Part shown: positions 5,130 to 28,510 of the stretch, one piece after another | Position numbering within the stretch: position 1 is the first letter of the stretch | Layout: each line of letters starts with the position of its first letter | NCBI RefSeq assembly: GCF_009769385.1 | Contig: NZ_VKAB01000016.1 | Coordinates: 186,001-250,000, forward strand | Source of the DNA: Saccharothrix deserti | GTDB lineage: Bacteria; Actinomycetota; Actinomycetes; Mycobacteriales; Pseudonocardiaceae | Length of the DNA stretch: 64,000 bases | Reading direction: 5' to 3' | Position numbers and translations under genes: made by a program | The notes under the pieces: model-generated | What the model saw: only the letters and a program-made list of their open reading frames with translations | Databases searched by the model: none | What the model was told of the DNA's origin: nothing

Positions 5130-5243
5130 CGGCGTGTTCTCCGCGGTGACGCGCTGAACGCCGTGATGTGTCCTTTCGGAACCGCGCAGGACATCAATGC
5201 GTCATCATCTGTAGGAGACAGGCGAGTCAGGGGAGGTGTCGCC

Positions 5244-5303
5244 GTGTCCGTCGGGCCGGTCGATCAAGGCGCAGTCGTGTCCACCACCGGGGTGGGTGCC
5301 TGA
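5244..5303 (+). CDS. Possible 19-residue ORF translationally coupled to the toxin gene
   Basis: GTG 5244 follows GGGGAGG at about 7-nt spacing and encodes VSVGPVDQGAVVSTTGVGA. Its TGA overlaps the ATG of the toxin gene (TGATG at 5301-5305). The toxin ATG itself lacks a clear ribosome site, so translation of this mini-ORF may deliver ribosomes to it. It has no recognisable homology. Confidence 0.4.
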   Translation: MSVGPVDQGAVVSTTGVGA

Positions 5304-8300
5304 TGGCGGGCGAGAACCCGCTGGTCGCCGCGCCGCCCGCCGAGCCGGGCGGGTTCATGAACGCCGGTACCGGGGACAACGGGTGGGCGACGGGCATCTC
5401 CATCGCCGAGTCGGCGATGGACACGTTCAACGGGATCAAGGACGGCAACTGGGTCGAGGCCGGCCTGGGGATGGTCGGGTTGGCCGCGGACGCGGCGGCC
5501 ATGGCGATCGATCCGTTCGGGACGTTGTTGTCGTCGGCGGCGTCGTTCCTGATGGAACACATGCAGCCGTTGAAGGACATGCTCGACTGGCTGGCCGGGA
5601 ACCCGCCGGTGATCGAGTCGTATTCCACGACGTGGAACAACGTGTCCACCGAGTTGGGGAAGATCGCCGAGGACTACAACGCGTCGGTCAAATCCGGCAC
5701 CGAGGGCTGGACGGGTGCGGCGGCCGAGGCGTACCTGACCAACTCCACTGTGCACGGTGACGCCCTGACCGGTGCGGCGTCCGCCGCCGGCACGGTCGGC
5801 ACGGTCGTGGGCCTGATGGGGATGGTCGTCGGGTTCGTGCGCGAGATGGTGCGCGACCTGATCGCCGACCTGGTGGGCAAGCTGATCGCGTGGGTGCTGG
5901 AGGCGGTGTTCTCGCTGGGCTTCGGGACGCCGGTGATCGTCGCGCAGGCGGTGACGGCGATCTCGAAGTGGGCCGCGAAGATCGCGAAGATCATCCAGGA
6001 CCTGCTGAACACGATCAAGCGGGTCTCGCCGATGCTGAAGCGCCTGGTCGAGGTCTTCGAGAAGATCATGAAGGTGGTCGGCAAACTCGCCGGCAAGGCC
6101 ACCGGGCTGGACGTTCTGGACCCGAAGAACATCAAGCGGGGCGGGTTCCTGCAGACCGGGAACACCGACGTCGACATGCCGTCCGGCGGCACCGGAAGCA
6201 GCAACTCGCCTTCCTCTTCGTCCTCTTCGTCCTCTTCGGACTCGCCCTCTTCGAACTCACCGTCCTCGGATTCACCGTCGTCGACCCGCCCGGGCAACGA
6301 CGCCACCTCCACCTCCAGCAGCACCACACCCACCGACACGCCGACGTCGAGGCCGGGCCGGGGCGACCCGGCCGATGTGCCCCCGCCGTCCCCGCGCCCT
6401 GGCCGCGACCCGAGCAGCCCGGACAGCGACGCCCCACCCCGAGGCGTCACCCCGCCCGGCTCCGGCAACAGCCCGAGCCCCGGCGACAGGCCCCTGGGCG
6501 AACACCGAGGCGGCCCCGGCGGCAACACCCCCACCAGCAGCCCCGCCCCCGGCGGCAACACCCCGCTGGGCGAGCACCGGGGCGGACCGGGCGGCAACGC
6601 ACCCAGCGGCAACACGCCGGTCGGTGAACACCGAGGCGGACCAGGCGGCCAACCCGCACCCAGCAGCAACACCCCGCTCGGCGAACACCGAGGCGGGCCG
6701 GGCGGCCAGCCAGGAGGCGGCGGCACCGGTGGCGGCTCCTACACCGGCGGCAGTGGTGGCGGCACGGGCGGTGGTGGCGGCACCGGTGGGCCGAGCGGCG
6801 GCGGTTCGCCCAGCGGTGGTGGCGGCACGGGCGGCGGCGGGGACTCGGCACCACCCCCTGCGCGGTTCGACCAGACCTCCGCAGCCACAGCGGCCACGCC
6901 CGACGCGCCCGCACGCCCAGACCAGCCCCACACCGGCGGCCCGAACACCGGCCCGCAGGGCGGCCAACCCAACCCGGGCGGCACGCCTCCCGCCGGTGGC
7001 GGCATGCCAGGCGGTGGCGCACCCGGTGGTGCGCCGGGCGGCGGCGCTCCTGGTGGTGGCGCTCCCGGTGGTGGCGGCGCACGGCCCGGCTCGGGCGGCG
7101 GCTGGACCGGAACACCCGGAAACCGGGGCGACCTCGGCTCCGGCATCCCGGCGGCCCGAGGTCCGGAAGGCCCGCGACCTTCCTCGTACGGCCCGTCGCC
7201 CAGCGGACCCGGCACTCCCGGTCCGTCCCACGGCGGTCCGATCCCCGGCAACACGCCCCACGGCGGTCCACCCTCCGGCAACACACCCCACGGCGGTCCA
7301 CCCTCCGGCAACACACCCCACGGCGGCCCATCCCCCAGCAACGCACCCCACGGCGGTCCGCCGCACGCGGGTCCGGGTCCGTCCCACGCGAACCCCGGCA
7401 ACGGACCTGTCCCACGCGGCAACGGCCCGGTCCAGCCCGGTCCCGCGCACAACGGCCCGTTCAACACCGACCCCGCCAACAACCGCCCGCACAGCGGCCC
7501 CGGCCCCACGCAGAGCGGCCCGCCGCACAACGGGCCGTCGCACACGAGTCCGTCCCAGGCTGGGCCTTCGCACACGAGCCCGTCTCAGGCAGGGCCGTCC
7601 CACACCAGTCCGTCCCACGCGAACCCGTCCCACGGCGGCCCGCCGCACGGCAACCAGCCCCACAGCGGCCCGGGCAACCCGGGTCCGTCCCACACCGGCC
7701 CGTCGCAGGCAGGGCCGTCCCACGGCGGCCCGCCCAACAGCGGTCCGCCGAACCGGGGCCCCTCCAACACGGCCCCTTCCGGCGTACCGCACCAGCCCAC
7801 GCCCCCGCACACCCCGAACAGGCCGTTCGACGGCCCGCCACCCCAACGCCACCCGGACGCGCAGACCCCGTCACCGCGCCACGCCCCGGACAACGCACCT
7901 CCCCGGCACGCCGAGCCCCCCGTCCCCCACCAGCGCCCTGACTCGGACGCCTGGTCACCGCCGCACCGCGACCCCGACGGCCCGGACGCGGACCGGCCGA
8001 ACATCGACGAGGCCCACACCCGCCACGGCGAGACGACCCCGGCGGGCATCTCGCACCACCGGGGTGACTCGGACATGGGCGACTTGCCGCAGCGCGTGCC
8101 CCACGACCCGCGCTACTTCACCGCCGACGTCCACATCACCCCCGACGGCCGAGCGCGCATCGGCAACCACACCTACAGCCCCGAGGAATACGGCGACCTG
8201 CTCCGACGCAACGGCTGGGACGGCAAAACCCCCATCCGCCTGATCGGCTGCGACGCCGGCAGCAACAACTTCGCCAACCGCCTCTCCACCCACACCGGCG

Positions 8301-10120
8301 CCGACGTCCTCGCCCCCACCAAACCCGCCTGGACCGACACCCAAGGCCGCGTCTACACCAGCGACGCCGAAATCGGCCCCGACGGCAACCGCCAACCCAA
8401 GATCCCGCCCAACGGCGAATGGGAAACCCACCGACCCGACGGCACCCGCACCAAGGCGAGCGAAGACGGCTTCGTCCCCGGCACGCACGACGCCGACAAG
8501 CACGACCTCACCCCGGACGACGCACGCGACCGCGCCGCGCGGGACAACTCGATCACCGACCCGCCGGAAGGCCGCGACCCGACGCCGCAGCGGGCCGTGA
8601 CCTGGGACCCGCCCCAGGACCTGCCGCGGGTGGACGTGGAGGTCGACCCGAACCAGCGCGTCCTCGACTTCAACGGCGGGCCGCCGCTGGAGCCGAACTC
8701 GCGCGTCGTCGTCCACAACCCGGACGGCTCGGTGCGCGGCACGTACTACACCGACGCGAACCGCAACGTCACGCACGTCGACACCAGCGTGCCGAACACC
8801 CGCAACAGCGCGGGCGTGCCGGTCAACCCGGACACCGCCCACCCCGAACCGGGCGTCGTGTACCAGGTGGACACCGGGGTCAGCACGCTCACGTTCCGCG
8901 GCCAGGAGATCCCCGACACCACCCCGCCCCGGACGGACGGCAGCACCACCGACGCGGACACCCCGGCGAACCGGACGAACACCCCGGAGACCTCGCCGGA
9001 CCGAAGCCCGGACCAAAGCCCAGGCCAAAGCCCGGACCAGAGCGCGGACCAAACCCCGGACCAGAGCCCGGACCACCGCCCCGCCGACCGCTTCGACGAG
9101 TTCGACCGGGCCGGGACCGACCCCGCCGTGGAGTGGAACCCGCCCGGCGGCCCTGACGGCAACTACCGGACGATGCCGCCGCACGAGAACTACAACCCGT
9201 CTCCCCCACCGGACGGCGACGGCCCGTTCTCGTTGCGCGGCAACGACCCCGACAACCCGCTGGAGCCGCACGCCCGCTACGACGTCTACAACGACAACGG
9301 CGACTGGCACGGCACGTTCTACACCGACGCCGACGGCCGGGTGTCGCACGTCCAGACGTGGTCGGGCAACAGCACCCAGGGCTTCAACCCGGAACTGGGC
9401 ACCAAGGAGACGTGGGACGCGGGCATGCCGGTCCCGGCGCCGAACACGACGTTCGCAGTGGGACCGCGGTACGTGGAAGGCATGGAGCCGACCGTGCCGC
9501 AGCAGATGTACCGGACCGACGTGCACGGCGACACGATCGTTGCCAGCGGGCGCCCGGTCTACCCGCCCAGCGGCACCACGGCGGAGGACTTCTGGGGTCC
9601 GCGGCGCGGTGTCACGCCGGGCTCTTACGCTGAGGGTGTCCAGCCCGAGACCGGTCGGATCGCCAGCGGCGGCAAGGAGGGCTACAAGGACCCGACGGCG
9701 GGCGAGTACGCGCCGTTCAACTACTACGGGAACAAGCCGGAGCTGTTCAAGTTCGACGGCGGCCACATCACGCCGTTCGAGGGCGGCGGTCCCGGTGAGC
9801 GGATCAACCACATCCCCCAGTGGGCCTACGAGAACCGGCCCATGCGGATCGACGGCGGGTCGACGGACGACACGTGGAGGAGGATGGAGGAGGACATCGC
9901 GCGCCGCGCGGCGGTCGACGGCACGACCGTCGACCGGGTGGACTTCTACGCCGAGCGCACCACGCCGGACGTGCACACGCCGGACAAGCTGCACGTGCGC
10001 TACCACTTCACGGTGTCCGACCCGCCGCCGCCCAGGACCGTGCAGGAGATCAGGAGCTTCCACAATGTCCCCGAGCCAGCGAGGAACAACCGTGTCGTCC
10101 TCCCACCACCAACCCCTTGA
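5303..10120 (+). CDS. Polymorphic toxin: WXG100-like N-terminus, long repetitive linker, C-terminal DNA/RNA non-specific nuclease
   Basis: 1605-residue protein, probably exported by a type VII (ESX-like) system. Residues about 1-160 are helical with a WxG-type turn (TEGWTGAAAEAY, W near 135). Residues 163-225 are strongly hydrophobic. Residues about 290-910 are a Gly/Pro/His/Ser/Asn linker containing four GEHRGGPGG units and HGGPPSGNTP repeats. Residues 925-1070 form a compact domain with IRLIGCDAGSNNFANRLS and KIPPNGEWETH, conserved in actinobacterial toxins. Two diverged GTxYTDxxGRVxHV modules follow. The C-terminus (about 1458-1593) has D1485-GGH1488, INHIPQWAYENR, WRRMEEDIARRA and DKLHVRYHF. 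This is the Endonuclea_NS_2 pattern of YeeF-type toxins, with DGGH in place of DRGH. It would degrade nucleic acid in a competitor cell. Two immunity genes follow directly. Confidence 0.85.
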   Translation: MAGENPLVAAPPAEPGGFMNAGTGDNGWATGISIAESAMDTFNGIKDGNWVEAGLGMVGLAADAAAMAIDPFGTLLSSAASFLMEHMQPLKDMLDWLAGNPPVIESYSTTWNNVSTELGKIAEDYNASVKSGTEGWTGAAAEAYLTNSTVHGDALTGAASAAGTVGTVVGLMGMVVGFVREMVRDLIADLVGKLIAWVLEAVFSLGFGTPVIVAQAVTAISKWAAKIAKIIQDLLNTIKRVSPMLKRLVEVFEKIMKVVGKLAGKATGLDVLDPKNIKRGGFLQTGNTDVDMPSGGTGSSNSPSSSSSSSSSDSPSSNSPSSDSPSSTRPGNDATSTSSSTTPTDTPTSRPGRGDPADVPPPSPRPGRDPSSPDSDAPPRGVTPPGSGNSPSPGDRPLGEHRGGPGGNTPTSSPAPGGNTPLGEHRGGPGGNAPSGNTPVGEHRGGPGGQPAPSSNTPLGEHRGGPGGQPGGGGTGGGSYTGGSGGGTGGGGGTGGPSGGGSPSGGGGTGGGGDSAPPPARFDQTSAATAATPDAPARPDQPHTGGPNTGPQGGQPNPGGTPPAGGGMPGGGAPGGAPGGGAPGGGAPGGGGARPGSGGGWTGTPGNRGDLGSGIPAARGPEGPRPSSYGPSPSGPGTPGPSHGGPIPGNTPHGGPPSGNTPHGGPPSGNTPHGGPSPSNAPHGGPPHAGPGPSHANPGNGPVPRGNGPVQPGPAHNGPFNTDPANNRPHSGPGPTQSGPPHNGPSHTSPSQAGPSHTSPSQAGPSHTSPSHANPSHGGPPHGNQPHSGPGNPGPSHTGPSQAGPSHGGPPNSGPPNRGPSNTAPSGVPHQPTPPHTPNRPFDGPPPQRHPDAQTPSPRHAPDNAPPRHAEPPVPHQRPDSDAWSPPHRDPDGPDADRPNIDEAHTRHGETTPAGISHHRGDSDMGDLPQRVPHDPRYFTADVHITPDGRARIGNHTYSPEEYGDLLRRNGWDGKTPIRLIGCDAGSNNFANRLSTHTGADVLAPTKPAWTDTQGRVYTSDAEIGPDGNRQPKIPPNGEWETHRPDGTRTKASEDGFVPGTHDADKHDLTPDDARDRAARDNSITDPPEGRDPTPQRAVTWDPPQDLPRVDVEVDPNQRVLDFNGGPPLEPNSRVVVHNPDGSVRGTYYTDANRNVTHVDTSVPNTRNSAGVPVNPDTAHPEPGVVYQVDTGVSTLTFRGQEIPDTTPPRTDGSTTDADTPANRTNTPETSPDRSPDQSPGQSPDQSADQTPDQSPDHRPADRFDEFDRAGTDPAVEWNPPGGPDGNYRTMPPHENYNPSPPPDGDGPFSLRGNDPDNPLEPHARYDVYNDNGDWHGTFYTDADGRVSHVQTWSGNSTQGFNPELGTKETWDAGMPVPAPNTTFAVGPRYVEGMEPTVPQQMYRTDVHGDTIVASGRPVYPPSGTTAEDFWGPRRGVTPGSYAEGVQPETGRIASGGKEGYKDPTAGEYAPFNYYGNKPELFKFDGGHITPFEGGGPGERINHIPQWAYENRPMRIDGGSTDDTWRRMEEDIARRAAVDGTTVDRVDFYAERTTPDVHTPDKLHVRYHFTVSDPPPPRTVQEIRSFHNVPEPARNNRVVLPPPTP
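7241..7370 (+). repeat. 30-bp in-frame tandem repeats in toxin linker
   Basis: About four tandem units of 30 bp beginning cacggcggtcc, each encoding a variant of HGGPPSGNTP; the two central copies are nearly identical. The repeats are coding and in frame, part of the low-complexity stalk, and prone to copy-number change. Confidence 0.8.
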
Positions 10121-19960: not shown

Positions 19961-20452
19961 ATGTCAACCATTTCGAGTGAGCCGCGGGTGAACCTGAAGA
20001 CGGTCACCTCCGACGTGTCCGCCGCCATGCGGGCGCTGCACCTCTCGGCCGCGGACGCCGCGGCGCGTGCCGGGGTGCCCGCCGCGCTGCTGGAGCTGGT
20101 GCGCCTGCGCGTCTCGCAGATCAACGGGTGCGAGTTCTGCATCGACCTGCACGCCCGCGACGCCCGGACCGGTGGCGAGTCGGAGCAGCGGCTGGCCGCC
20201 CTGAGCGGCTGGTCGGAGTCGCCGCTGTTCGACGCGCGGGAGAAGGCCGCGCTCGCGCTGGCCGAGGCGATCACCCTCGTGCACGACGGACGGGTGCCGG
20301 ACGGGGTGTACCGGGCCGCCGCCGGCGAGTTCGACGAGCAGGCGCTCGCCGCGCTCATCTGGGTCAGCACCGTGATCAACTCCTACAACCGCATCGCGAT
20401 CAGCACTCGCATGGTCCCCGCCGCTCAGCCGTCCACGACGACCTCAAGCTGA
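19961..20452 (+). CDS. AhpD/carboxymuconolactone decarboxylase-family alkylhydroperoxidase
   Basis: 163 residues. The signature VSQINGCEFCIDLHARDAR holds the redox pair Cys57 and Cys60 and the downstream His64 of AhpD-like enzymes, which reduce hydroperoxides through a CxxC relay. The helical body (LLELVRLRVS, EKAALALAEAIT, ALAALIWVSTVINSYNRIAI) matches the family and its usual length. Expressed from a leaderless promoter. Its 3' end overlaps the convergent pabC-like gene by 28 bp, so no terminator separates them. Confidence 0.88.
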   Translation: MSTISSEPRVNLKTVTSDVSAAMRALHLSAADAAARAGVPAALLELVRLRVSQINGCEFCIDLHARDARTGGESEQRLAALSGWSESPLFDAREKAALALAEAITLVHDGRVPDGVYRAAAGEFDEQALAALIWVSTVINSYNRIAISTRMVPAAQPSTTTSS

Positions 20453-21198
20453 CACGGCAGCGTGGCGGAGAGCGGGTCCAGCGGCGTGCGCAGCCGTTCG
20501 ACCCGCTCCCGCCACTGCCGCACGCGCGTGCCGCGGCCGGCCGGGACGTCGCACCCGACCCACCCGCTCACCAACCGGATGCCGTGCAGGGCGTTGAGCA
20601 GCCACACCTCCCGGTCGGCCAACTCCTCGACCCGGCGGGCACGGCGATCCGTCCGGATCCCGTTCGCCCTGGCCAGGTCCTTCACCAGCTCGGCGGTGGT
20701 GCCGACCAGCGCCGGGATCTCCTCGGGAGGCGAGCACAGCACGTCGTCCTCCCACCACAGGATCGACGACGTCGCCGCTTCGACCACGATGCCGTCCGCC
20801 GTCCGCAGCAGCGCTTCCTGGGCCTGGTGGTTCGCCGCCTCGGCACGCAGTCGGCCCATCGCGAGGAGGTCGGGTCCCTTGCGGGTCGGACTGCGCCGGT
20901 GATCGGCCGCGTCCGGCACCCACACCCGCACGGATCCGCCGCGCGCGGGCGCCCGGCGGATCCGCAGGCGCAGCGCCGGCGGATCACCGATGAGCTCCGC
21001 CCGCGGGAACCACGCGCCCGAGCGGGGCAGCACGGCGATCGCATCGCGCCAGAACGCGTGCAACTCGTCCGGTGTGACGGCACCGAGCTCCAGACAGGCC
21101 CGGGTGAACCTGACGACGTGCCGATCCAGCGACCGCACCGCCCCGTTCAGCACCAGCCAGGAGTCGGCCACCAGCAGAGACCCGTCGTCGATTCTCAT
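20425..21198 (-). CDS. pabC: Class IV aminotransferase-fold enzyme, probable 4-amino-4-deoxychorismate lyase
   Basis: 257 residues, ATG directly abutting the stop of the hydroxylase gene (TGAATG). Class IV PLP fold: PLP lysine in TRKGPDLLAMGRLRAEA (Lys107), then QEALLRTADGIVVEAATSSI, the conserved E-x-x-x-S-x-I cofactor-cradle region. The N-terminus SWLVLNGAVRSLDRHVVRF is the domain 1 signature, with R-x-x-x-H-x-x-R-F. With the fused PabAB in the same operon, the likely reaction is ADC to p-aminobenzoate plus pyruvate. A D-amino-acid or branched-chain aminotransferase role is less likely from context. Confidence 0.75.
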   Translation of the reverse strand: MRIDDGSLLVADSWLVLNGAVRSLDRHVVRFTRACLELGAVTPDELHAFWRDAIAVLPRSGAWFPRAELIGDPPALRLRIRRAPARGGSVRVWVPDAADHRRSPTRKGPDLLAMGRLRAEAANHQAQEALLRTADGIVVEAATSSILWWEDDVLCSPPEEIPALVGTTAELVKDLARANGIRTDRRARRVEELADREVWLLNALHGIRLVSGWVGCDVPAGRGTRVRQWRERVERLRTPLDPLSATLPCQLEVVVDG

Positions 21199-22416
21199 TC
21201 AGATACCCGTCCCGCTCGTCAAAACCCCTGGTCGCGGCCCGTAGGGTGCGCGCTCCAGCCACTCACCGAACCTCGGCACCACCGGTGCCAGGCGTGCCGC
21301 CGCCGTCCGCCGCAGCCGGGCCGCCGCGCTGGGCGGACGCAGGTGCCGCAGTGCCGCACCCGCGGCGGCGCTGTTGACCTGCGCCGCCGCACGCCTGGCG
21401 GTGACGAACTCGGAGACGGCGTCGGCGTTCGCCCCGGGGGAACGGCGGCCGGTCGCGATGGCGTCCGCCGCCGCCCGTGCGTCGACGAAACCGCTGTTCA
21501 TGCCGCGTGCGCCGAAGGGCGGGAACAGGTGGGCGGCCTCCCCCACGAGCAGCACCCGCCGGTGCGGGTCGGTGAAGTCGTCCGCGATGAGCTGGAGGAA
21601 CCGGTACACCGAGATCGCGGTGATGCGCGCGGTCGGCGTCGGTCCGATCAGGTCGGGCAGCCACCGCCGCACCTCCGCCGGCGAGGCGATGACGTCCGGG
21701 TCGTCACCGGCACGGCTCTGCACGTCGACCTGGAAGCCCGACGCGTAGGGCACGATCAGCACGCCGCGGCCGTCCGCGGCTGGGTGTTCGTAGTGCATCA
21801 CCCGCTCCAGGCTCGGTGTGCCGCCGGGCTCGTCGGCGACGTCGACGACCACGTGGAAGCCGTCCGAGGCGGCCGAGCCGGTCAACGGCACGCCCGTGCT
21901 CTTGCGCACCGTCGACCTGGCACCGTCGGCTCCCACGACGTGGCTGCCCCAGCAGGTCTCACCACCGGCGGTGGTGACGATGACCCCGTCGGAGTCCGCG
22001 GACACCTCGGTGACCGGGTGGTTCCACCGGATCTCCACCCCTGCCCGTTCACAGGCGTGGCGCAGGATGCGCTCGGTCTCGCTCTGCCGCAGGCTGGTGA
22101 ACGGCGGCAGGCCGCGGGAGGCGTCGCGCGCCGGGTACTCCCGCGCGTACACCTGCCGCCCTCGGTACAGGGTGCGCCGGACGTTCCAGAGCACGCCGTG
22201 TGCCGCGACCTCGGCTCCCAGACCCGGGCTGGTGGTTTCCAGCAGCGCCAGCGACTCGCCGTGCACGTAGAGGGCACGGCTGCCGGTGCGGACCCGGTCG
22301 GCGGGGTCGGCTTCGAGCAGGACCACGGGAATCCGCCGGGCGCGCAGGGCCAGCGCCGCGAAGAGCCCCACCGGGCCCGCGCCCACGACGATCACCGGCC
22401 CCGCCGCCTCAGCCAC
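21199..22416 (-). CDS. FAD-dependent aromatic monooxygenase (p-hydroxybenzoate hydroxylase type)
   Basis: 405 residues, group A flavoprotein monooxygenase that would hydroxylate an aromatic ring using NAD(P)H and O2. FAD fold VIVVGAGPVGLFAALAL (8-24), the middle motif HVVGADGARSTVRKSTG, and the second FAD motif VLLVGEAAHLFPPFGARGMNSG with GE in place of GD. The start overlaps the end of the upstream ligase by 8 nt, so the genes are coupled. In this operon the natural candidate substrate is p-aminobenzoate or its thioester/adenylate product. Family knowledge allows ring hydroxylation or oxidative decarboxylation, and the sequence does not distinguish them. Confidence 0.82.
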   Translation of the reverse strand: MAEAAGPVIVVGAGPVGLFAALALRARRIPVVLLEADPADRVRTGSRALYVHGESLALLETTSPGLGAEVAAHGVLWNVRRTLYRGRQVYAREYPARDASRGLPPFTSLRQSETERILRHACERAGVEIRWNHPVTEVSADSDGVIVTTAGGETCWGSHVVGADGARSTVRKSTGVPLTGSAASDGFHVVVDVADEPGGTPSLERVMHYEHPAADGRGVLIVPYASGFQVDVQSRAGDDPDVIASPAEVRRWLPDLIGPTPTARITAISVYRFLQLIADDFTDPHRRVLLVGEAAHLFPPFGARGMNSGFVDARAAADAIATGRRSPGANADAVSEFVTARRAAAQVNSAAAGAALRHLRPPSAAARLRRTAAARLAPVVPRFGEWLERAPYGPRPGVLTSGTGI

Positions 22417-23986
22417 GGGCCACCGCGCTGTCCCCCGCGGCGATCAACTGGGCGAGCGCCACGCGCTTGATCTTCCACGTCGACGTCCTGGGCAGGTCGT
22501 CGAACGCCCACTGCTGCGGTGCGCCCAGGTTCGGCAGGTCGGCCGTCGCCCGCCGCCACCGGGCCGGCCCCAGCGGCGCCCCGGTGCGGGTGCACACCAC
22601 CGGCACCGCCACCCCGCCCGCGCCGGGAACCACGACCACCTCGCGCAGCTCGTCCAGCCGGGACATCAGCACGTCCTCGATCCGCAGGTTGCTGTCCACG
22701 TCGTCGATCCGGTCGATCTCGCGGTCGATCAGGTGCAGTCCGCCCCACCAGCTGCGGGTGCCCATGTCGCCCATGCGCCACCAGCGCCTGTTGAGCTGCG
22801 CGTCGAACCTGTCCTGCGCTCCCTGGTAGGTGAGGATCCGGCCACGGGTGCGCGCCTCGATGTGCCCGACCGTTCCGCGTGGCGCCGGGGCGCCGGAATC
22901 GTCGGTGATCCGGACCTTGGTGAAGCCGGGGATGCCCATGCCCACCAGCCGTCCGTTGCCGCGCAACGCGCCTCGCTCGGTGAAGACGCGCACGGCCACC
23001 GGCCCGGTCTCGCTCTGCCCGTAGAGCTGCACGAGGTACTTCCCGCGCCGCTGGGACGCGCCGAGCAGCCGTTGCACGGTGCGCGGGTGGATGGCGTCGA
23101 ACGTGCTGCTGAAGCAGCGGACGTCGCGCAACGGTTCTCCCGGGGCGTCCACCAGGTCTTCCCACAGCACGAACGTGTTGGGGTGCGTCTCCACCACACC
23201 CGGCCTCCACCGGGTCAGCAGCGGGCCGACCGAGGCGGGGTCGTGGTTCACGAGCAGGAGCAACGGGCTGCCGCCGGACAGGAACGTGCCGAGAGCGTGG
23301 TAGAAGCGCGAGTGGACGAACGACATGCAGAAGGCCGCCGTCTCCCCGCGCACGGGGAGCGCCATGACCTTCTGCGGCACCAACCTGTTCCACAGCGCCC
23401 GGGGGCAGTGCACGGCGAGCTTGGGCACGTCGGTGGTGCCCGAGCTGTGCGTGATCAGCGCGGGCTCGTCGGGGTACAGCCGAACCGGCTTGGCCGGTCT
23501 GGTCACGAGGATGTCGGCGAGTGCCACGGCATCGCGGCTCGACCCGCTCACCAGGATCCGCCTGCTGGTCAGCCCGGAGATGTCGGTGTGCGCCATCAGC
23601 CGCGACAACGTCGTCTCGTCGGTGACCAGCAACGGCCGGTCGAGCCTGCCGAGCAGGATGCCCGCCGCGACGGCGTCCAGACCGGGCGACAACAGGACGG
23701 GCACCGCACCGATGCGGGACGCGGCACAGGCGAGCAGCGCGATGTCCGCGTTGTCGCTCTTGTGGACCGCGACGTGGCTCGCGGGCCTGACCCCGGCCGC
23801 CCACAGCTTGTCCGCCAGCCGGTCCACCAGATCGGCCATGGACCGGTACGTGTGCTGGAGCCCGTCCTCGGGAGCCACGTCCAGCGGACGGTCCAGGACG
23901 ACCGGCACGTCGCCGTGGCGGTCCGCCGCCTCGCGGAACATCTGCCCGATGTAGAAACCACTGCCGGAGAAGATCTTCTGCTGCAC
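22409..23986 (-). CDS. ANL-superfamily adenylating ligase (acyl-CoA synthetase-like), divergent
   Basis: 525 residues from GTG 23986, preceded by GAGGAG at 5-nt spacing; longer readings upstream lack a ribosome site. AMP-binding P-loop ITHSSGTTDVPKLAVH, aromatic A5-like VQLYGQSETGP, A8-like MGDMGTRSWWGGLHLIDREI, and a C-terminal catalytic lysine in RTSTWKIKRVAL, where the usual glycine of TGKI is tryptophan. The enzyme activates a carboxylate as an acyl-AMP. Divergence from the benzoate-CoA ligase next door suggests a different substrate or a non-CoA acceptor, such as amide formation. It is separated by 32 nt from that ligase. Confidence 0.8.
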   Translation of the reverse strand: MQQKIFSGSGFYIGQMFREAADRHGDVPVVLDRPLDVAPEDGLQHTYRSMADLVDRLADKLWAAGVRPASHVAVHKSDNADIALLACAASRIGAVPVLLSPGLDAVAAGILLGRLDRPLLVTDETTLSRLMAHTDISGLTSRRILVSGSSRDAVALADILVTRPAKPVRLYPDEPALITHSSGTTDVPKLAVHCPRALWNRLVPQKVMALPVRGETAAFCMSFVHSRFYHALGTFLSGGSPLLLLVNHDPASVGPLLTRWRPGVVETHPNTFVLWEDLVDAPGEPLRDVRCFSSTFDAIHPRTVQRLLGASQRRGKYLVQLYGQSETGPVAVRVFTERGALRGNGRLVGMGIPGFTKVRITDDSGAPAPRGTVGHIEARTRGRILTYQGAQDRFDAQLNRRWWRMGDMGTRSWWGGLHLIDREIDRIDDVDSNLRIEDVLMSRLDELREVVVVPGAGGVAVPVVCTRTGAPLGPARWRRATADLPNLGAPQQWAFDDLPRTSTWKIKRVALAQLIAAGDSAVARG

Positions 23987-24018
23987 GGTAACTCCTCTGT
24001 GGATAGTGGGCGGACAGG

Positions 24019-25500
24019 TCACCAGGAACCCGTGCGCACGACGTGCCGACGCAACTTGCCGGTGGCGGTCCTCGGTAACCGGTGCACGAGCCGCACCGTG
24101 CGAGGGACCTTGAACGCGGGTAGCCGGGACCGGGTCCAGGCGAGCAGTTCGGCCTCCAGCTCCGGTGTGGGTTCGGTCCCGCCTTCGGGGACCACGAACG
24201 CCCGCAGCCGTGAGGCGTGCTGGTGGTCGAGCACGGCGGCCACCGCGGCCTCGCGGACCACGGGGTGCGCGGCCAGCACCCGTTCGACCTCCAGTGGCGA
24301 CAGGGATATCCCGCCGACCATCTCCATGTCGTCGGTGCGGCCGAGGTGGCTCACCGTGCCGTCGGCGTTGTGGCGGACCCGGTCGTGGGTGGCCAGCCAG
24401 CCGTCGACGAGTGTTCTCCCGCTGAGTTCCGGCTGGTTGAGGTAGTGGGAGAACAGCGTCGGGCCGCGGACCCACAGTTCGCCCTCGGCGCCGGTGTCTA
24501 CGGGTCGGCCGTGCCGATCACGCACCTGCACGTCCCAGCCGGGCACCGGGCGGCCCAGCGTGCCGGGTGTGTTGTCGTCGATCCGGTTGGCGCAGAACGC
24601 GTGTCCGGCCTCGGTGGAGCCGATCTGCTCCAACACCTCGACGCCCAGGTCCTTCAGCCGAGCGCCGAGCGAGTCGGGCAGTGGTTCGCCGGCGGACACC
24701 GCGACACGCAGGGATGTCAGCGCACCGCGCGTGTCGGCGGACGCCAGCGCCCCGTAGGAGGAAGGCACCGAGTACAGGACGCTCACCCGGTGCCGGGCCA
24801 CCATGTCGACGATCTCCTCCGGTCCGGGGCGGTGCGGTGCGAGGACCGCGGCCGAACCCGAGTGCAGCGGGAAGACCAGCGCGTTGCCGAAGCCGTACGC
24901 CCAGAACATCTTCGACACCGACAGCGCGATGTCGTCGGGCCCGATGCGCAGCACGTCGCGTGCCACGGATGTGCCGTACAGGTCGAGGTCCTTGTGGGCG
25001 TGCACGACGCCTTTCGGGTGACCCGTGGTCCCGGACGTGTACTGCACGTAGAGCGGGCTCGTCGCGGTGACGTCGGCCGCGGGCACGACCGCGGACGCCC
25101 AGGCCCGGCCGATCAGGCGGTCGACGTCGATCCACGTGCGGCCCGCGAAGCGGTCCTCCAACGCCGCACCCGTCACGCAGGCACGTGCGCCGCAGTCCTC
25201 CAGCAGCAGTTCGTGGTCGGCCGGGGTGAGCTCGGGGTTCACCAGGACGGCCACCGCACCCAGCCGCGCGATCGCGAGGAAGGCGACCACCCACGCGACA
25301 CCGTCCGGCGCGGCCAGCAGCACGTGGTCACCCCGGCTCACGCCGCGGTCGCGCAGCACGCCCGCGGCCCGCGCGGCGCAGTCGTGCACCCGACCGTGCG
25401 TCCACACGTCGTCGCCCACCAGGTAGGCGGGCTGCGACGACCAGCCGAACCGCTCGGCGCGTGCGGCCAGCACGTGCGCCGCGTTGTCGACCCCGCCCAT
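24019..25500 (-). CDS. Benzoate/aminobenzoate-CoA ligase-type adenylating enzyme
   Basis: 493 residues. ATG 25500 shares a base with the PabAB stop. P-loop VQYTSGTTGHPKGVVHAHKD, then VSKMFWAYGFGNALVFPLHS, typical of benzoate-CoA ligases; A5 LEQIGSTEAGHAF; A7/A8 THDRVRHNADGTVSHLGRTDD; A10 lysine in RTATGKLRRHVV. The benzoate-CoA ligase family converts an aryl acid, ATP and CoA to aryl-CoA. Directly after an aminodeoxychorismate synthase gene the best guess is p-aminobenzoate as substrate. Cytoplasmic. Confidence 0.85.
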   Translation of the reverse strand: MGGVDNAAHVLAARAERFGWSSQPAYLVGDDVWTHGRVHDCAARAAGVLRDRGVSRGDHVLLAAPDGVAWVVAFLAIARLGAVAVLVNPELTPADHELLLEDCGARACVTGAALEDRFAGRTWIDVDRLIGRAWASAVVPAADVTATSPLYVQYTSGTTGHPKGVVHAHKDLDLYGTSVARDVLRIGPDDIALSVSKMFWAYGFGNALVFPLHSGSAAVLAPHRPGPEEIVDMVARHRVSVLYSVPSSYGALASADTRGALTSLRVAVSAGEPLPDSLGARLKDLGVEVLEQIGSTEAGHAFCANRIDDNTPGTLGRPVPGWDVQVRDRHGRPVDTGAEGELWVRGPTLFSHYLNQPELSGRTLVDGWLATHDRVRHNADGTVSHLGRTDDMEMVGGISLSPLEVERVLAAHPVVREAAVAAVLDHQHASRLRAFVVPEGGTEPTPELEAELLAWTRSRLPAFKVPRTVRLVHRLPRTATGKLRRHVVRTGSW

Positions 25501-27707
25501 CAGCCGGCCTCCACCTCGGTGCGCCGTGCGGCGGCACGTCGGCGGCGGGCGTGCCTGCCCCTGGACACGCGCGGCTCGGCGGGCAGCACCGCGGCCGGTT
25601 GGTGCGCGCCGGAATCCCAGTACGCCCGCATCGGCGCGGCCAGCTTGAGCAGCATCTCCCGGTATTCCGCCTCGGGATCGGAGTCCAGCACGACCGCACC
25701 GCCGGCTCCGATCCGCACCCGTCCGGAGGCGAAGACCGCGGTGCGGATGACGATGCTGAGGTCGGCGGACCCGTTGCAGCTCAGGAAGCCCAGTGCGCCG
25801 GAGTACACGCCGCGGGCGCCGGACTCCAGTTCGTCGATGATCTCCATCGTGCGTTCCTTGGGCGCACCGGTCATGGACCCGCCGGGGAAGCAGGCCCGCA
25901 CGCAGTCCAGCGCGTCCAGCCCCGGCCTCAGCTCGCCGCGCACCGTCGAGACGAGTTGGTGCACGGTCTGGTAGGAGCGGGTCGCCATCAGTTCCGGCAC
26001 TTCCACCGTGCCCACCCGGCACACCCGGCCCAGGTCGTTGCGCAGCAGGTCGACGATCATCAGGTTCTCCGCGCGCGTCTTCGGGTCCTCGGCCAGGCCG
26101 TCGCGCAGCGCGGCGTCCTGTTCGGGGGTCACCCCGCGTGCGGCCGTGCCCTTGATCGGTTCGGCCTGCACGACCCCGTCCGCGCCGACCCGGAGGAACC
26201 GCTCGGGTGACGAACTGGCCACGTCGACCTCGCCGAAGCGCAGGTAGGCGGAGAACGGCGCGGGGTTGACCCGGCGCAGCACCCGGTAGTAGTCGGCGGA
26301 GCCGGACGTCGCGGGCAGTTCCACCGCCGTGGTCAGGCAGATCTCGTAGCTCTCGCCCGCGTGCAGTTGCTCCTGGCAGGAAACGACATCCGTGCGGTAG
26401 TCCTCCGCCTCGCGCAGCAGCCAGCGTTCGGTGATCTCCACGGCGTCGTCGGCCTGCCGGGTCGACGAGTACAGCCGGGCTTTGGCGGGAGGTGTCTGGT
26501 GCGACGACAGGGAGGACAGGACGCGGAGTGTCGCGTCGAGCCAGGCGGTGGCCTCCTCGGCGGCGGCCGGTGTGTCCTCGGCGAGGCAGAGCAGGTACGC
26601 CGTGTGCTCGTGGTGGTCGATGACGACGACCCGGTCGGCGAACAACCAGGCGGCGTCGGGGGTACTGCTGCGGTGCGCGGCCCGGCCACCGAGGACGGCC
26701 TTGAGTTCGTACCCGAAGTACCCGACCCAGCCGCACGTGAAGTCGAAGGGGAGGTCCGGCCGCGGGTGTGCGCGTTGCTCGAGACCACGCCGCAGGTAGG
26801 CGAACACGTCTTCGCGCAGCCTGATCGCCGGTCGACCCGCGCGCTCCACCGTCAGCACACCGGCATCCACGTCGTAGCTGAGGTACTCGGCGAGCGGACC
26901 GGTGTCGTCGCCCAGGTAGGAGAAGCGCGCCCCCCGGTCCCCCGCTCCGGCGCCGTCCAGCCAGAACGCGCGTGGCGATGCAGAGTGGAGTTTCGCGAAC
27001 ACCTGCTCCGGGTCGACGACTCCGCGGTGCACCGCGGTGTGCAGCCGGTGGCCGGTGTGCCGGACGGGCGTGTCGTTCATCGTTTCCGCAGGTGTGGGGT
27101 GGGAACCGGGCACCGTGATGGACGGTCTCGCCACCTCGGAGAGCGCCCGGAAGTTGGCGACCAGCCGGGTTCCCCACTCGGTGAGGATCGATTCGGGGTG
27201 GAACTGCACCCCCCACTGGGGACGGGAGCGGTGGCGCAGCCCCATCAGCACGCCGTCCTCCGCCCAGGCGGTGGCCTCCAGTTCCGGTGGCAGCGGTTCG
27301 CGCACGCACAACGAGTGGTAGCGCACCGCGGTGAACCCTTGGGGCATTCCCGCGAACAGGTCGCGCCCGTCGTGGGTGACGGTGGTCGGATGACCGTGGC
27401 GGGCCTGCGGCGCGAACGCGACCTGCGCGCCGGCCTGGAACCCCAACCCCTGGTGGCCGAGGCACACCCCGAGCACCGGCAACACGTCCTGGTCCAGGAA
27501 GCGGTTCGCCCCGGCGAGGTCCCGGTCCCGGCCCGGTCGACCGGGTCCCGGGGAGATCACCACGTTGTCCACCTCGTCGAACGACAGCCTGGACAACTCC
27601 GGGTCGTCGTTGCGCAGCACGAGGGGTTCTTCCCCGTTCACGCCCGCGACGAGGTGGAACAGGTTGTACGTGTACGAGTCGTGGTTGTCGATGAGGAGGG
27701 TCCGCAC
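25500..27707 (-). CDS. pabAB: Fused aminodeoxychorismate synthase (glutamine amidotransferase plus chorismate-binding domain)
   Basis: 735 residues from GTG 27707 (GGAGC upstream). Residues 1-195 are a class I glutamine amidotransferase: nucleophile Cys82 in LGVCLGHQGLGF, catalytic His-x-Glu in VQFHPESIL. Residues about 225-695 are the chorismate-binding domain: GESYEICLTT, AEPIKGTAARG, MIVDLLRNDLGR, GGSMTGAPKERTMEII. PIKGT with a lysine near position 519 is the PabB signature, where TrpE has PIAGT; it marks formation of 4-amino-4-deoxychorismate rather than anthranilate. The last 25 residues are arginine-rich. Fused PabAB is typical of actinomycete secondary-metabolite clusters that need extra p-aminobenzoate. 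Confidence 0.92.
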   Translation of the reverse strand: MRTLLIDNHDSYTYNLFHLVAGVNGEEPLVLRNDDPELSRLSFDEVDNVVISPGPGRPGRDRDLAGANRFLDQDVLPVLGVCLGHQGLGFQAGAQVAFAPQARHGHPTTVTHDGRDLFAGMPQGFTAVRYHSLCVREPLPPELEATAWAEDGVLMGLRHRSRPQWGVQFHPESILTEWGTRLVANFRALSEVARPSITVPGSHPTPAETMNDTPVRHTGHRLHTAVHRGVVDPEQVFAKLHSASPRAFWLDGAGAGDRGARFSYLGDDTGPLAEYLSYDVDAGVLTVERAGRPAIRLREDVFAYLRRGLEQRAHPRPDLPFDFTCGWVGYFGYELKAVLGGRAAHRSSTPDAAWLFADRVVVIDHHEHTAYLLCLAEDTPAAAEEATAWLDATLRVLSSLSSHQTPPAKARLYSSTRQADDAVEITERWLLREAEDYRTDVVSCQEQLHAGESYEICLTTAVELPATSGSADYYRVLRRVNPAPFSAYLRFGEVDVASSSPERFLRVGADGVVQAEPIKGTAARGVTPEQDAALRDGLAEDPKTRAENLMIVDLLRNDLGRVCRVGTVEVPELMATRSYQTVHQLVSTVRGELRPGLDALDCVRACFPGGSMTGAPKERTMEIIDELESGARGVYSGALGFLSCNGSADLSIVIRTAVFASGRVRIGAGGAVVLDSDPEAEYREMLLKLAAPMRAYWDSGAHQPAAVLPAEPRVSRGRHARRRRAAARRTEVEAG

Positions 27708-27754
27708 AGATCACGCTCCGGTGTTCGTGGTGGCGGGGTCGTCCGGCGATCGCG

Positions 27755-28510
27755 TCAGCGGCGACGCGATCGGGACTGCTGTCCGCCAGGGGAGGTCGCG
27801 GGGGCGGCGTGCCGTGCCCGCGCGGCTCTGGGTGGTCGTGAACCCGATCGGGCGCCGTTGTCGGCAGGCACCGCCACGGGTCGGAGTCCGTGTGAGGTCG
27901 AGGTGGGTGCGACGTCGAGGTCGGGCTGGTCGTCACCACTGGGCGGGGCCACGGGAGCGGTGCCCCGGCGCAGCCACGGGCCGAGCAGCTTCTGCACCTG
28001 CGGCATGAGCACCCAGGTCATCAGCACCGTCACGCACACGCACAGCACGAACGTGCGCGCGACGAGCGGCAGGCCGGCCACCTGCGGGATGACGGTGACG
28101 TTGACCAGGAGCACCGCCGGGAACACCCCGGTCAGCGTCATCAGCGCCATCTTCCACCGCGGTGGTGGGCTCGGCGCCGCCGGTGGGACGGGTGGAGCCG
28201 GCACGTCCGCCGGGGGTGCCGTCGTGGACACGCCCACGCCGCCGGGGGTCGCGAAGCGCCCGATGTATTCGCGCCAGGTCTCGTGCAACCGCGACTGCCC
28301 CCACGCGGTGACGTTCTCCACGCTGTCGAACCAGCAGATGACCAGCCACGTCGCGGAATCGCCCGATGCTTTCTCCATTCTGCCTTCGAGATAACCCGGT
28401 GATCTGGACGCGGCGCCGAGCAGGCCCTTTACCGATGTCGAGAAACCCTCCATCCGACCCGGCGCCACCCGGTGTGTGCTAATGATCACACCTGGTTTTC
28501 CGTCGGGCAT
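27755..28510 (-). CDS. ABM-domain (antibiotic biosynthesis monooxygenase-like) protein with two C-terminal membrane segments
   Basis: About 251 residues. The N-terminal 95 residues form a dimeric alpha/beta-barrel ABM domain (VIISTHRVAPGRMEGFSTSV, SPGYLEGRMEKASGDSATWL, WGQSRLHETWREYIGRF). A Pro-rich linker is followed by two membrane helices (ALMTLTGVFPAVLLVNVTVI, TFVLCVCVTVLMTWVLM) and a basic, low-complexity tail. Membrane anchoring is the odd point, since most ABM proteins are soluble. It lies 47 nt upstream of pabAB on the same strand and is probably the first gene of that operon. An upstream in-frame start would add about 15 residues. A cofactor-free oxygenase role is only suggested. Confidence 0.7.
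   Translation of the reverse strand: MPDGKPGVIISTHRVAPGRMEGFSTSVKGLLGAASRSPGYLEGRMEKASGDSATWLVICWFDSVENVTAWGQSRLHETWREYIGRFATPGGVGVSTTAPPADVPAPPVPPAAPSPPPRWKMALMTLTGVFPAVLLVNVTVIPQVAGLPLVARTFVLCVCVTVLMTWVLMPQVQKLLGPWLRRGTAPVAPPSGDDQPDLDVAPTSTSHGLRPVAVPADNGARSGSRPPRAARARHAAPATSPGGQQSRSRRR

Follow-up and report, generated by a model that had tools for sequence, protein, structure and literature searches.

A seven-gene actinomycete cassette that probably makes an aryl diazo compound from p-aminobenzoate

Introduction

Biosynthesis of cremeomycin in Streptomyces cremeus joins an aminobenzoate precursor, an ATP-dependent diazotase of the ANL family and the enzymes CreE and CreD, which produce the nitrous acid for the diazo group (PMC11705231, PMC11429834). 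The penzonemycin (pzm) cluster of Streptomyces sp. SCSIO 40020 likewise combines a chorismate-derived aminobenzoate with CreD, CreE and Pzm18, a homologue 48% identical to CreM (PMC9323291). ATP-dependent ANL diazotases also belong to the avenalumic and p-coumaric acid clusters (AvaA6 and CmaA6), and 72 of 134 ava-type clusters are without local avaE/avaD (PMC10777205). The CreM-type pathways covered in the review literature considered here start from 3-amino-4-hydroxybenzoate (3,4-AHBA), anthranilates or polyketide-derived amines. Here we describe seven genes in a 64-kb part of the 10.8-Mb genome of Saccharothrix deserti (contig NZ_VKAB01000016.1, positions 186,001 to 250,000; this whole stretch is called the window), which probably form a specialised-metabolite cassette making an aryl diazo compound derived from p-aminobenzoate (PABA); our confidence is lower for each chemical detail.

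The cassette, named after its two ANL enzymes ANL1 and ANL2, resembles each of these systems in part. As with cremeomycin, CreD and CreE accompany some of its relatives, but the cremeomycin precursor is 3,4-AHBA made through CreH and CreI, whereas the cassette would start from PABA made out of chorismate; CreD and CreE are both missing from the window, and the available descriptions of cremeomycin mention no partner like ANL1. Penzonemycin differs in using 3-hydroxyanthranilate made by PhzE/PhzD-type enzymes and in its SRPBCC and quinone reductase partners, none of which turned up next to the PABA cassettes. Many ava-type clusters, like many of the cassettes, are without local nitrite genes, but the AvaA6 and CmaA6 clusters encode a type II polyketide synthase (PKS) and carrier proteins, and the cassette ANL2 fails the AvaA6 model.

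Results

A conserved seven-gene cassette

The genes are listed in Table 1. An earlier note on this DNA had described six tightly packed minus-strand genes, all of which are present as one operon at the coordinates that it gave, with junctions where it placed them: a TGATG overlap at 25500, an 8-base overlap at 22409-22416 and an abutment at 21198/21199. It missed a seventh conserved gene, the convergent gene for an AhpD/CMD-family protein. Pfam matches across the cassette are Aminotran_4, FAD_binding_3, AMP-binding (twice), Chorismate_bind with GATase, and ABM. The ANL2 open frame starts at 24475 and contains an alternative GTG start at 24022; the gene is called here as 23986-22409.

Table 1. 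Genes of the S. deserti cassette, in window coordinates.
Feature	Coordinates	Strand	Evidence
ABM-domain protein, hydrophobic C-terminal segments	27755..28510	-	Pfam ABM 23.1 bits, exactly the cut-off
PabAB, fused 4-amino-4-deoxychorismate (ADC) synthase	25500..27707	-	TIGR00553 346.4 bits (cut-off 328.4); best PDB match 8hx6
ANL1, benzoate-CoA-ligase-like; presumed carboxylate activation	24019..25500	-	TIGR02262 357.3 bits; PDB 2v7b
ANL2, CreM/Pzm18-family; presumed ATP- and nitrite-dependent diazotase	22409..23986	-	Family context, tree, alignment, model compared with PDB
FAD-dependent aromatic hydroxylase	21199..22416	-	Pfam FAD_binding_3; best PDB match PnpA 6ain
ADC-lyase-like class IV pyridoxal phosphate (PLP) enzyme	20425..21198	-	Pfam Aminotran_4; presumed PLP Lys107
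AhpD/CMD-family protein, convergent, overlaps operon end	19961..20452	+	CMD 63.3 bits

Scanning public genomes with ANL2 yielded 24 loci (L, G and C numbers are our labels for loci, genomes and contigs). The genes for PabAB, ANL1, ANL2, the hydroxylase and the ADC-lyase-like protein occur together in 20 of these, from several actinomycete families, a count that includes L028-L030, where the genes are in pieces or cut. All seven genes, including that for the ABM protein, are recognisable in 15 of the 24. The four loci outside the count of 20 are L014 and L015, truncated at contig ends, L012, where the fetched sequence shows no ADC-lyase-like gene, and L027, a different cluster. In some loci from Pseudonocardiales (L023, L024 and L136) a methyltransferase gene joins the set. 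Of the 392 Streptomyces genomes sampled, 50 (one by a partial match) encode an orthologue of ANL2 with 59% identity or more; in 16 of their neighbourhoods (L205-L220) the genes for ANL1, the hydroxylase and AhpD are always present, PabAB is found in 15 (L208 being cut off where its contig ends), and 14 have the ADC-lyase-like gene.

The nearest fetched relative, from Saccharothrix sp. ALI-22-I, has an ANL2 95% identical to that of the window, and in this comparison all seven genes are free of stops. The ratio of nonsynonymous to synonymous substitution (dN/dS) between the two is 0.19 for ANL2, 0.20 for the hydroxylase, 0.26-0.39 for PabAB, ANL1, ABM and AhpD, and 0.61 for the ADC-lyase-like protein. 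Recurrence in many genera, seven open genes in the sister strain and dN/dS values of 0.19-0.61 argue that the cassette is not a chance assembly.

Predicted supply of p-aminobenzoate

PabAB scores above the TIGR00553 cut-off for ADC synthase component I, and the solved structure that it matches best belongs to a fused ADC synthase (Table 1), in agreement with the PABA-type cluster proposed by the earlier note. The motif PIKGT, which the note had read in PabAB, distinguishes ADC synthase from anthranilate synthase; it lies in the PabB half, and its lysine is present in all 40 PabAB copies. The ADC-lyase-like protein is more divergent, its best ADC-lyase equivalog reaching 46.7 bits, well under the cut-off of 273. 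The presumed PLP lysine (Lys107 in the window) is kept in 33 of the 38 copies that have a residue at the site and is replaced by Thr in L017, L019, L020 and L029 and by Pro in L030, all five from Streptomyces. These losses, together with the weaker constraint on the gene, suggest that an ADC lyase already present in the host can take its place.

At 8 of the 24 loci the fetched sequence also encodes a class II 3-deoxy-D-arabino-heptulosonate 7-phosphate (DAHP) synthase, which points to a flux through the shikimate pathway set aside for the cluster. The S. deserti genome has two other fused PabAB genes besides the one in the cassette. Since the genome has these extra genes and the clusters of relatives hold DAHP synthase and nitrous-acid genes, the cassette does not look like plain folate metabolism, an outcome that the earlier note had named as a way for its proposal to fail.

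ANL2 and the CreM/Pzm18 diazotases

Homology and gene context place ANL2 probably with the CreM/Pzm18 family of ATP-dependent diazotases, whose activity it is predicted to share. The window protein is 48-54% identical to homologues in pzm-like clusters (L138, L139 and L142) and in a 3,4-AHBA-type cluster (L222), and several homologue neighbourhoods agree with the penzonemycin cluster both in their genes and in the lengths of the encoded proteins. When 66 proteins of the ANL2 family are placed in a tree, all 37 PABA-cassette rows fall into one clade of 40 (SH-aLRT support 99); the other three are one 3,4-AHBA-type row, 54% identical to the window protein, and two from another cluster type. The cassette label has to change twice on the tree, so that its rows do not form a strict clade. 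The tree was built by a quick method with SH-aLRT support, has some long branches flagged, and left out L154 and L135 (duplicates), L172, L208, L015 and L030. The catalytic A10 lysine (Lys505) and A5 glutamate (Glu326) are present in 42 of 43 ANL2 copies, the exception, L029, being frame-split.

The A8 loop is a mark of CoA ligases. In the alignment it is present in ANL1 and replaced in ANL2 and its homologues. Benzoate-CoA ligases, which include the top PDB match of ANL1, have the ANL fold in common with these enzymes. Because ANL2 groups with the CreM/Pzm18 diazotases, it would probably work on the amine and not on the carboxylate. The earlier note had both ligases activating PABA and proposed a thioester, amide or aminophenol as product; the first of these claims does not hold for ANL2 if the grouping is right, and the second left out N-N chemistry.

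A predicted model of ANL2 (mean pLDDT 83.5) was compared with solved folds. CmaA6 (8ztz) came first, with Z 37.2, a root-mean-square deviation (rmsd) of 3.1 and 503 aligned residues; Tri17, described in the available literature as another N-N-forming ANL enzyme, gave Z 35.7, rmsd 3.1 and 438 aligned residues. The comparison agrees with assignment as a diazotase but is no proof of it, as it cannot tell diazotases apart from other members of the ANL family.

Two loci stand out in the tree and its surroundings. At L223 (genome G488, 6.7-11.7k) the cassette is reduced to genes for PabAB, ANL2 and the ADC-lyase-like protein, and a search of the genome at E<=1e-40 found no relative of the hydroxylase. 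Gly takes the place of the catalytic Cys in the PabA part of this locus, and its ANL2 forms a long branch; it was considered as a working minimal cassette and rejected on these two grounds, its sequence suggesting that it is probably decaying. At L012, labelled Rhodococcus rhodnii NRRL B-16535, ANL2 pairs with Kibdelosporangium in the tree and the genome is about 12.4 Mb, which we take to be large for that species; the strain label may be wrong.

Nitrite sources near the cassettes and their homologues

CreD and CreE genes adjoin the cassette at 5 of the 24 loci (L008, L009, L011, L013 and L022), from Lentzea, L. aerocolonigenes included, and Kibdelosporangium. On the nitrosuccinate-lyase model NF052556 (cut-off 650 bits), CreD scores 662 bits in L013 and 640 in L008; the flanking flavoprotein was taken as CreE from its adjacency and appearance, NCBIfam models giving no match. 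In one Streptomyces locus (L221), genes for DAHP synthase II, PabAB, ANL1, ANL2, the hydroxylase, the ADC-lyase-like protein and CreE follow one another on one strand.

More distant ANL2 homologues show the same association. Among 99 homologues from Streptomyces with 42-56% identity, at least 35 have CreE within 10 kb, where about 0.0009 per homologue is expected; the PABA cassette of G769 is in this bin twice, and some further genomes recur in it. The CreE matches in Streptomyces are those at E<=1e-85, and the proximity count, made from the matches listed, left out two partial ANL2 matches (the second copy in G638, and G022). CreE is present in 41 of 50 Streptomyces genomes with an ANL2 orthologue and in 193 of 342 others, among the matches listed and with rows read by eye (odds ratio 3.5, p=3.1e-4). 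Among the 23 searched genomes behind the 24 loci, 19 have a CreE of at least 50% identity, one of the 19, a Kutzneria, being without a cassette.

Neighbourhoods of 19 non-cassette homologues of about 43% identity or more (L027, L137-L152, L222 and L224) were also inspected. Seven contain a nitrite source: CreD with CreE in L139 and L142, and nitrate reductase in L138, L141, L143, L144 and L224, of which L143 and L144 cover overlapping parts of the same genome. PhzE-type genes occur in six of the 19. In L138 (4.1-12.3k), L143 (8-18k), L141 and L224 the CreM-family homologues adjoin nitrate reductase and nitrite-reductase-like genes, with a NarK-like nitrate transporter in L138, L143 and L224. 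These four loci also have SRPBCC and mostly quinone reductase genes, and 3-hydroxyanthranilate genes occur in L138 and L143/L144; apparently they are diazo clusters that draw nitrite from nitrate. L222, which has GriH/GriI-like genes and a methyltransferase, was considered as a true cremeomycin cluster; its fetched flanks hold no CreD or CreE and its genome is not among the CreE-bearing genomes listed at E<=1e-85, and it is therefore called only 3,4-AHBA-type.

AhpD-family genes also occur outside the PABA cassette, directly beside CreE in L042 (8.6-10.6k) and L153 (7.5-9.6k) and in a CreM-family cluster in L144 (14.2k), hinting that AhpD shares a role in diazo or nitrosative chemistry.

Elsewhere in the S. 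deserti genome, CreD and CreE pairs are found on contigs C7 and C33. The pair on C7 (L040) adjoins 3,4-AHBA-type genes, and on C6 (L042) a CreE match in two pieces, with an internal stop reported, lies near an ANL2 paralogue of 37% identity; C7 and C6 apparently carry further diazo or nitrite loci. Nitrite may be supplied to the window cassette in trans, and cassettes without local nitrite genes have a precedent in the 72 ava-type clusters without avaE/avaD.

ANL1 and the flavin hydroxylase

ANL1 falls slightly short of the TIGR02262 cut-off for benzoate-CoA ligase (375.25 bits), and a benzoate-CoA ligase is its top PDB match, which bears out the type that the earlier note had given it. Its presence argues that the carboxylate is retained and activated. 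The hydroxylase finds its top PDB match, at 90.6 bits, in PnpA, para-nitrophenol 4-monooxygenase, an ipso-hydroxylating enzyme, and the likeness leaves an ipso, decarboxylating route possible. The precursor pathways recognised beside the ANL2 family, 3,4-AHBA-type and 3-hydroxyanthranilate-type, both yield aminophenol acids, and by analogy our guess is that the hydroxylase acts before the diazotase, ortho to the amine. Both of those precursors were considered for the cassette itself and rejected, neither GriH/GriI nor PhzE/PhzD genes having been found in the 24 cassette loci.

Discussion

Proposed pathway

Family membership and gene context point to diazotisation, and sequence comparison predicts the PABA supply, the ANL fold with its catalytic residues and the class of the hydroxylase. 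In the pathway that we propose, chorismate would be converted to PABA by PabAB with either the PabC-like protein or the ADC lyase of the host, and the flavin hydroxylase would add a ring hydroxyl to it, most likely beside the amine, giving 4-amino-3-hydroxybenzoate, the position being a guess. ANL1 would convert the carboxylate to an acyl-AMP and CoA ester, whose fate is likewise a guess, and ANL2, as a CreM-type enzyme, would use ATP and nitrite to diazotise the aromatic amine, so that a cremeomycin-like o-quinone diazide results. Nitrite would come from the CreE/CreD aspartate-nitrosuccinate pathway, whose candidate genes are cassette-adjacent in some Lentzea and in Kibdelosporangium, represented by CreE only in one Streptomyces and placed elsewhere in the genome in S. 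deserti. The order of these steps is a guess. A broader statement, to which we give an even chance, is that this is a widespread minimal actinomycete pathway, present in about one-eighth of sampled Streptomyces, that leads from PABA to a carboxylate-activated aryl diazonium or quinone diazide with no PKS or non-ribosomal peptide synthetase (NRPS) and with nitrite supplied in trans in most hosts.

Several observations weigh against the diazo assignment. Membership of ANL2 in the CreM/Pzm18 family relies on look-alike clusters and one published identity. Its score on the AvaA6 diazotase model NF058622 is 45.8 bits against a cut-off of 975, several generic acyl-CoA ligase models outscore that model, and NCBIfam places ANL2 in no subfamily other than generic acyl-CoA ligase ones. 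A PDB sequence search returned the amide synthetase McbA (65.4 bits), FadD (64.7) and Tri17 (58.1), with CmaA6 absent from the matches at E<=1e-10, and in the fold comparison MenE (Z 37.0) and other ANL enzymes tied with CmaA6. No match to CreD or CreE was found in the 64-kb window. CreE lies within 10 kb of none of the 49 Streptomyces cassettes (ANL2 identity of at least 57%) and was not found at E<=1e-85 in 9 of the 50 orthologue-bearing Streptomyces genomes, both among the matches listed; at 50% identity or more it was not found in 4 of the 23 searched genomes. The test for co-occurrence of CreE with the ANL2 orthologue in Streptomyces ignores phylogeny. Finally, ANL1 has no obvious acceptor.

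Alternative readings

Diazotisation might take another form. The hydroxylase could decarboxylate PABA to 4-aminophenol, leading to a p-quinone diazide, or PABA could be converted directly to 4-diazoniobenzoate. This is a variant of the aryl diazo reading, with which its probability overlaps, and we regard it as possible but the lesser prospect. The likeness of the hydroxylase to PnpA (90.6 bits) speaks for decarboxylation, but ANL1 would then be pointless once the carboxylate was gone; L223, where neither hydroxylase nor ANL1 is left, also speaks for the variant, but it has the appearance of decay.

ANL2 could instead synthesise amides or act as another acyl-CoA ligase beside ANL1, close to the view of the earlier note, the product being a PABA amide or thioester with no N-N bond. 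This reading accounts for McbA as the top PDB sequence match, for the generic acyl-CoA ligase assignments of NCBIfam and for the 49 Streptomyces cassettes that CreE does not adjoin among the matches listed. McbA and ANL2 share the ANL fold, but the relatives of ANL2 are linked to nitrite genes: CreE lies near at least 35 of 99 homologues, nitrate reductase genes lie beside others, and CreD and CreE adjoin 5 of the 24 cassettes. The A8 loop is changed as well. The reading was set aside on the ties of the homologues to CreE and nitrate reductase genes, and we consider it unlikely.

Rather less likely is a transient diazo group, removed as in the ava and cma pathways by diazotisation-dependent deamination, with N2 released and a benzoate or hydroxybenzoate left. 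The routes to avenalumic and p-coumaric acid offer a precedent (PMC10777205), but none of the seven genes evidently encodes a separate NAD(P)-dependent reductase, no search having been aimed at a relative of AvaA7. A duplicate folate-type PABA supply with unrelated passengers would explain the folate-type PabAB and PabC-like enzymes and is very improbable given the two extra fused PabAB genes of S. deserti, seven genes that travel together across genera and a dedicated DAHP synthase at 8 of the 24 loci.

Significance

On the best reading, the cassette is a branch with a new precursor in a pathway of a known kind. If the aryl diazo reading is true, PABA is a new precursor for CreM-type diazo pathways, and the cluster type is defined by seven small genes instead of a PKS or NRPS. 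The earlier note knew of no described cluster of this exact composition, which is consistent with the open-licence literature, where nothing was found, among the matches listed, that joins PABA with diazo biosynthesis. Because the cassette is common, its product may matter ecologically, and because diazo compounds are unstable, it may have been overlooked.

Genomic context

The scanned flanking genes, a subset of the flanking open reading frames (ORFs), look unrelated to the cassette; they encode a solute-binding protein, an S13 peptidase, a permease, a PucR regulator, a class III aminotransferase, a phosphatase, and beta-lactamase-like and pectate-lyase-like proteins. As the earlier note had observed for the cassette, no PKS, NRPS, carrier-protein or halogenase domains were found in it or in these flanks, and the lack there of any carrier protein, ketosynthase or condensation domain does not fit a PABA-primed PKS or NRPS. 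Further along the window, a plus-strand ORF of 1650 aa (5168-10120) has no Pfam match at E<=1e-5, shows a strong AT skew and contains many 15-base (5-residue) repeats rich in Pro, Gly and His around 7169-7780.

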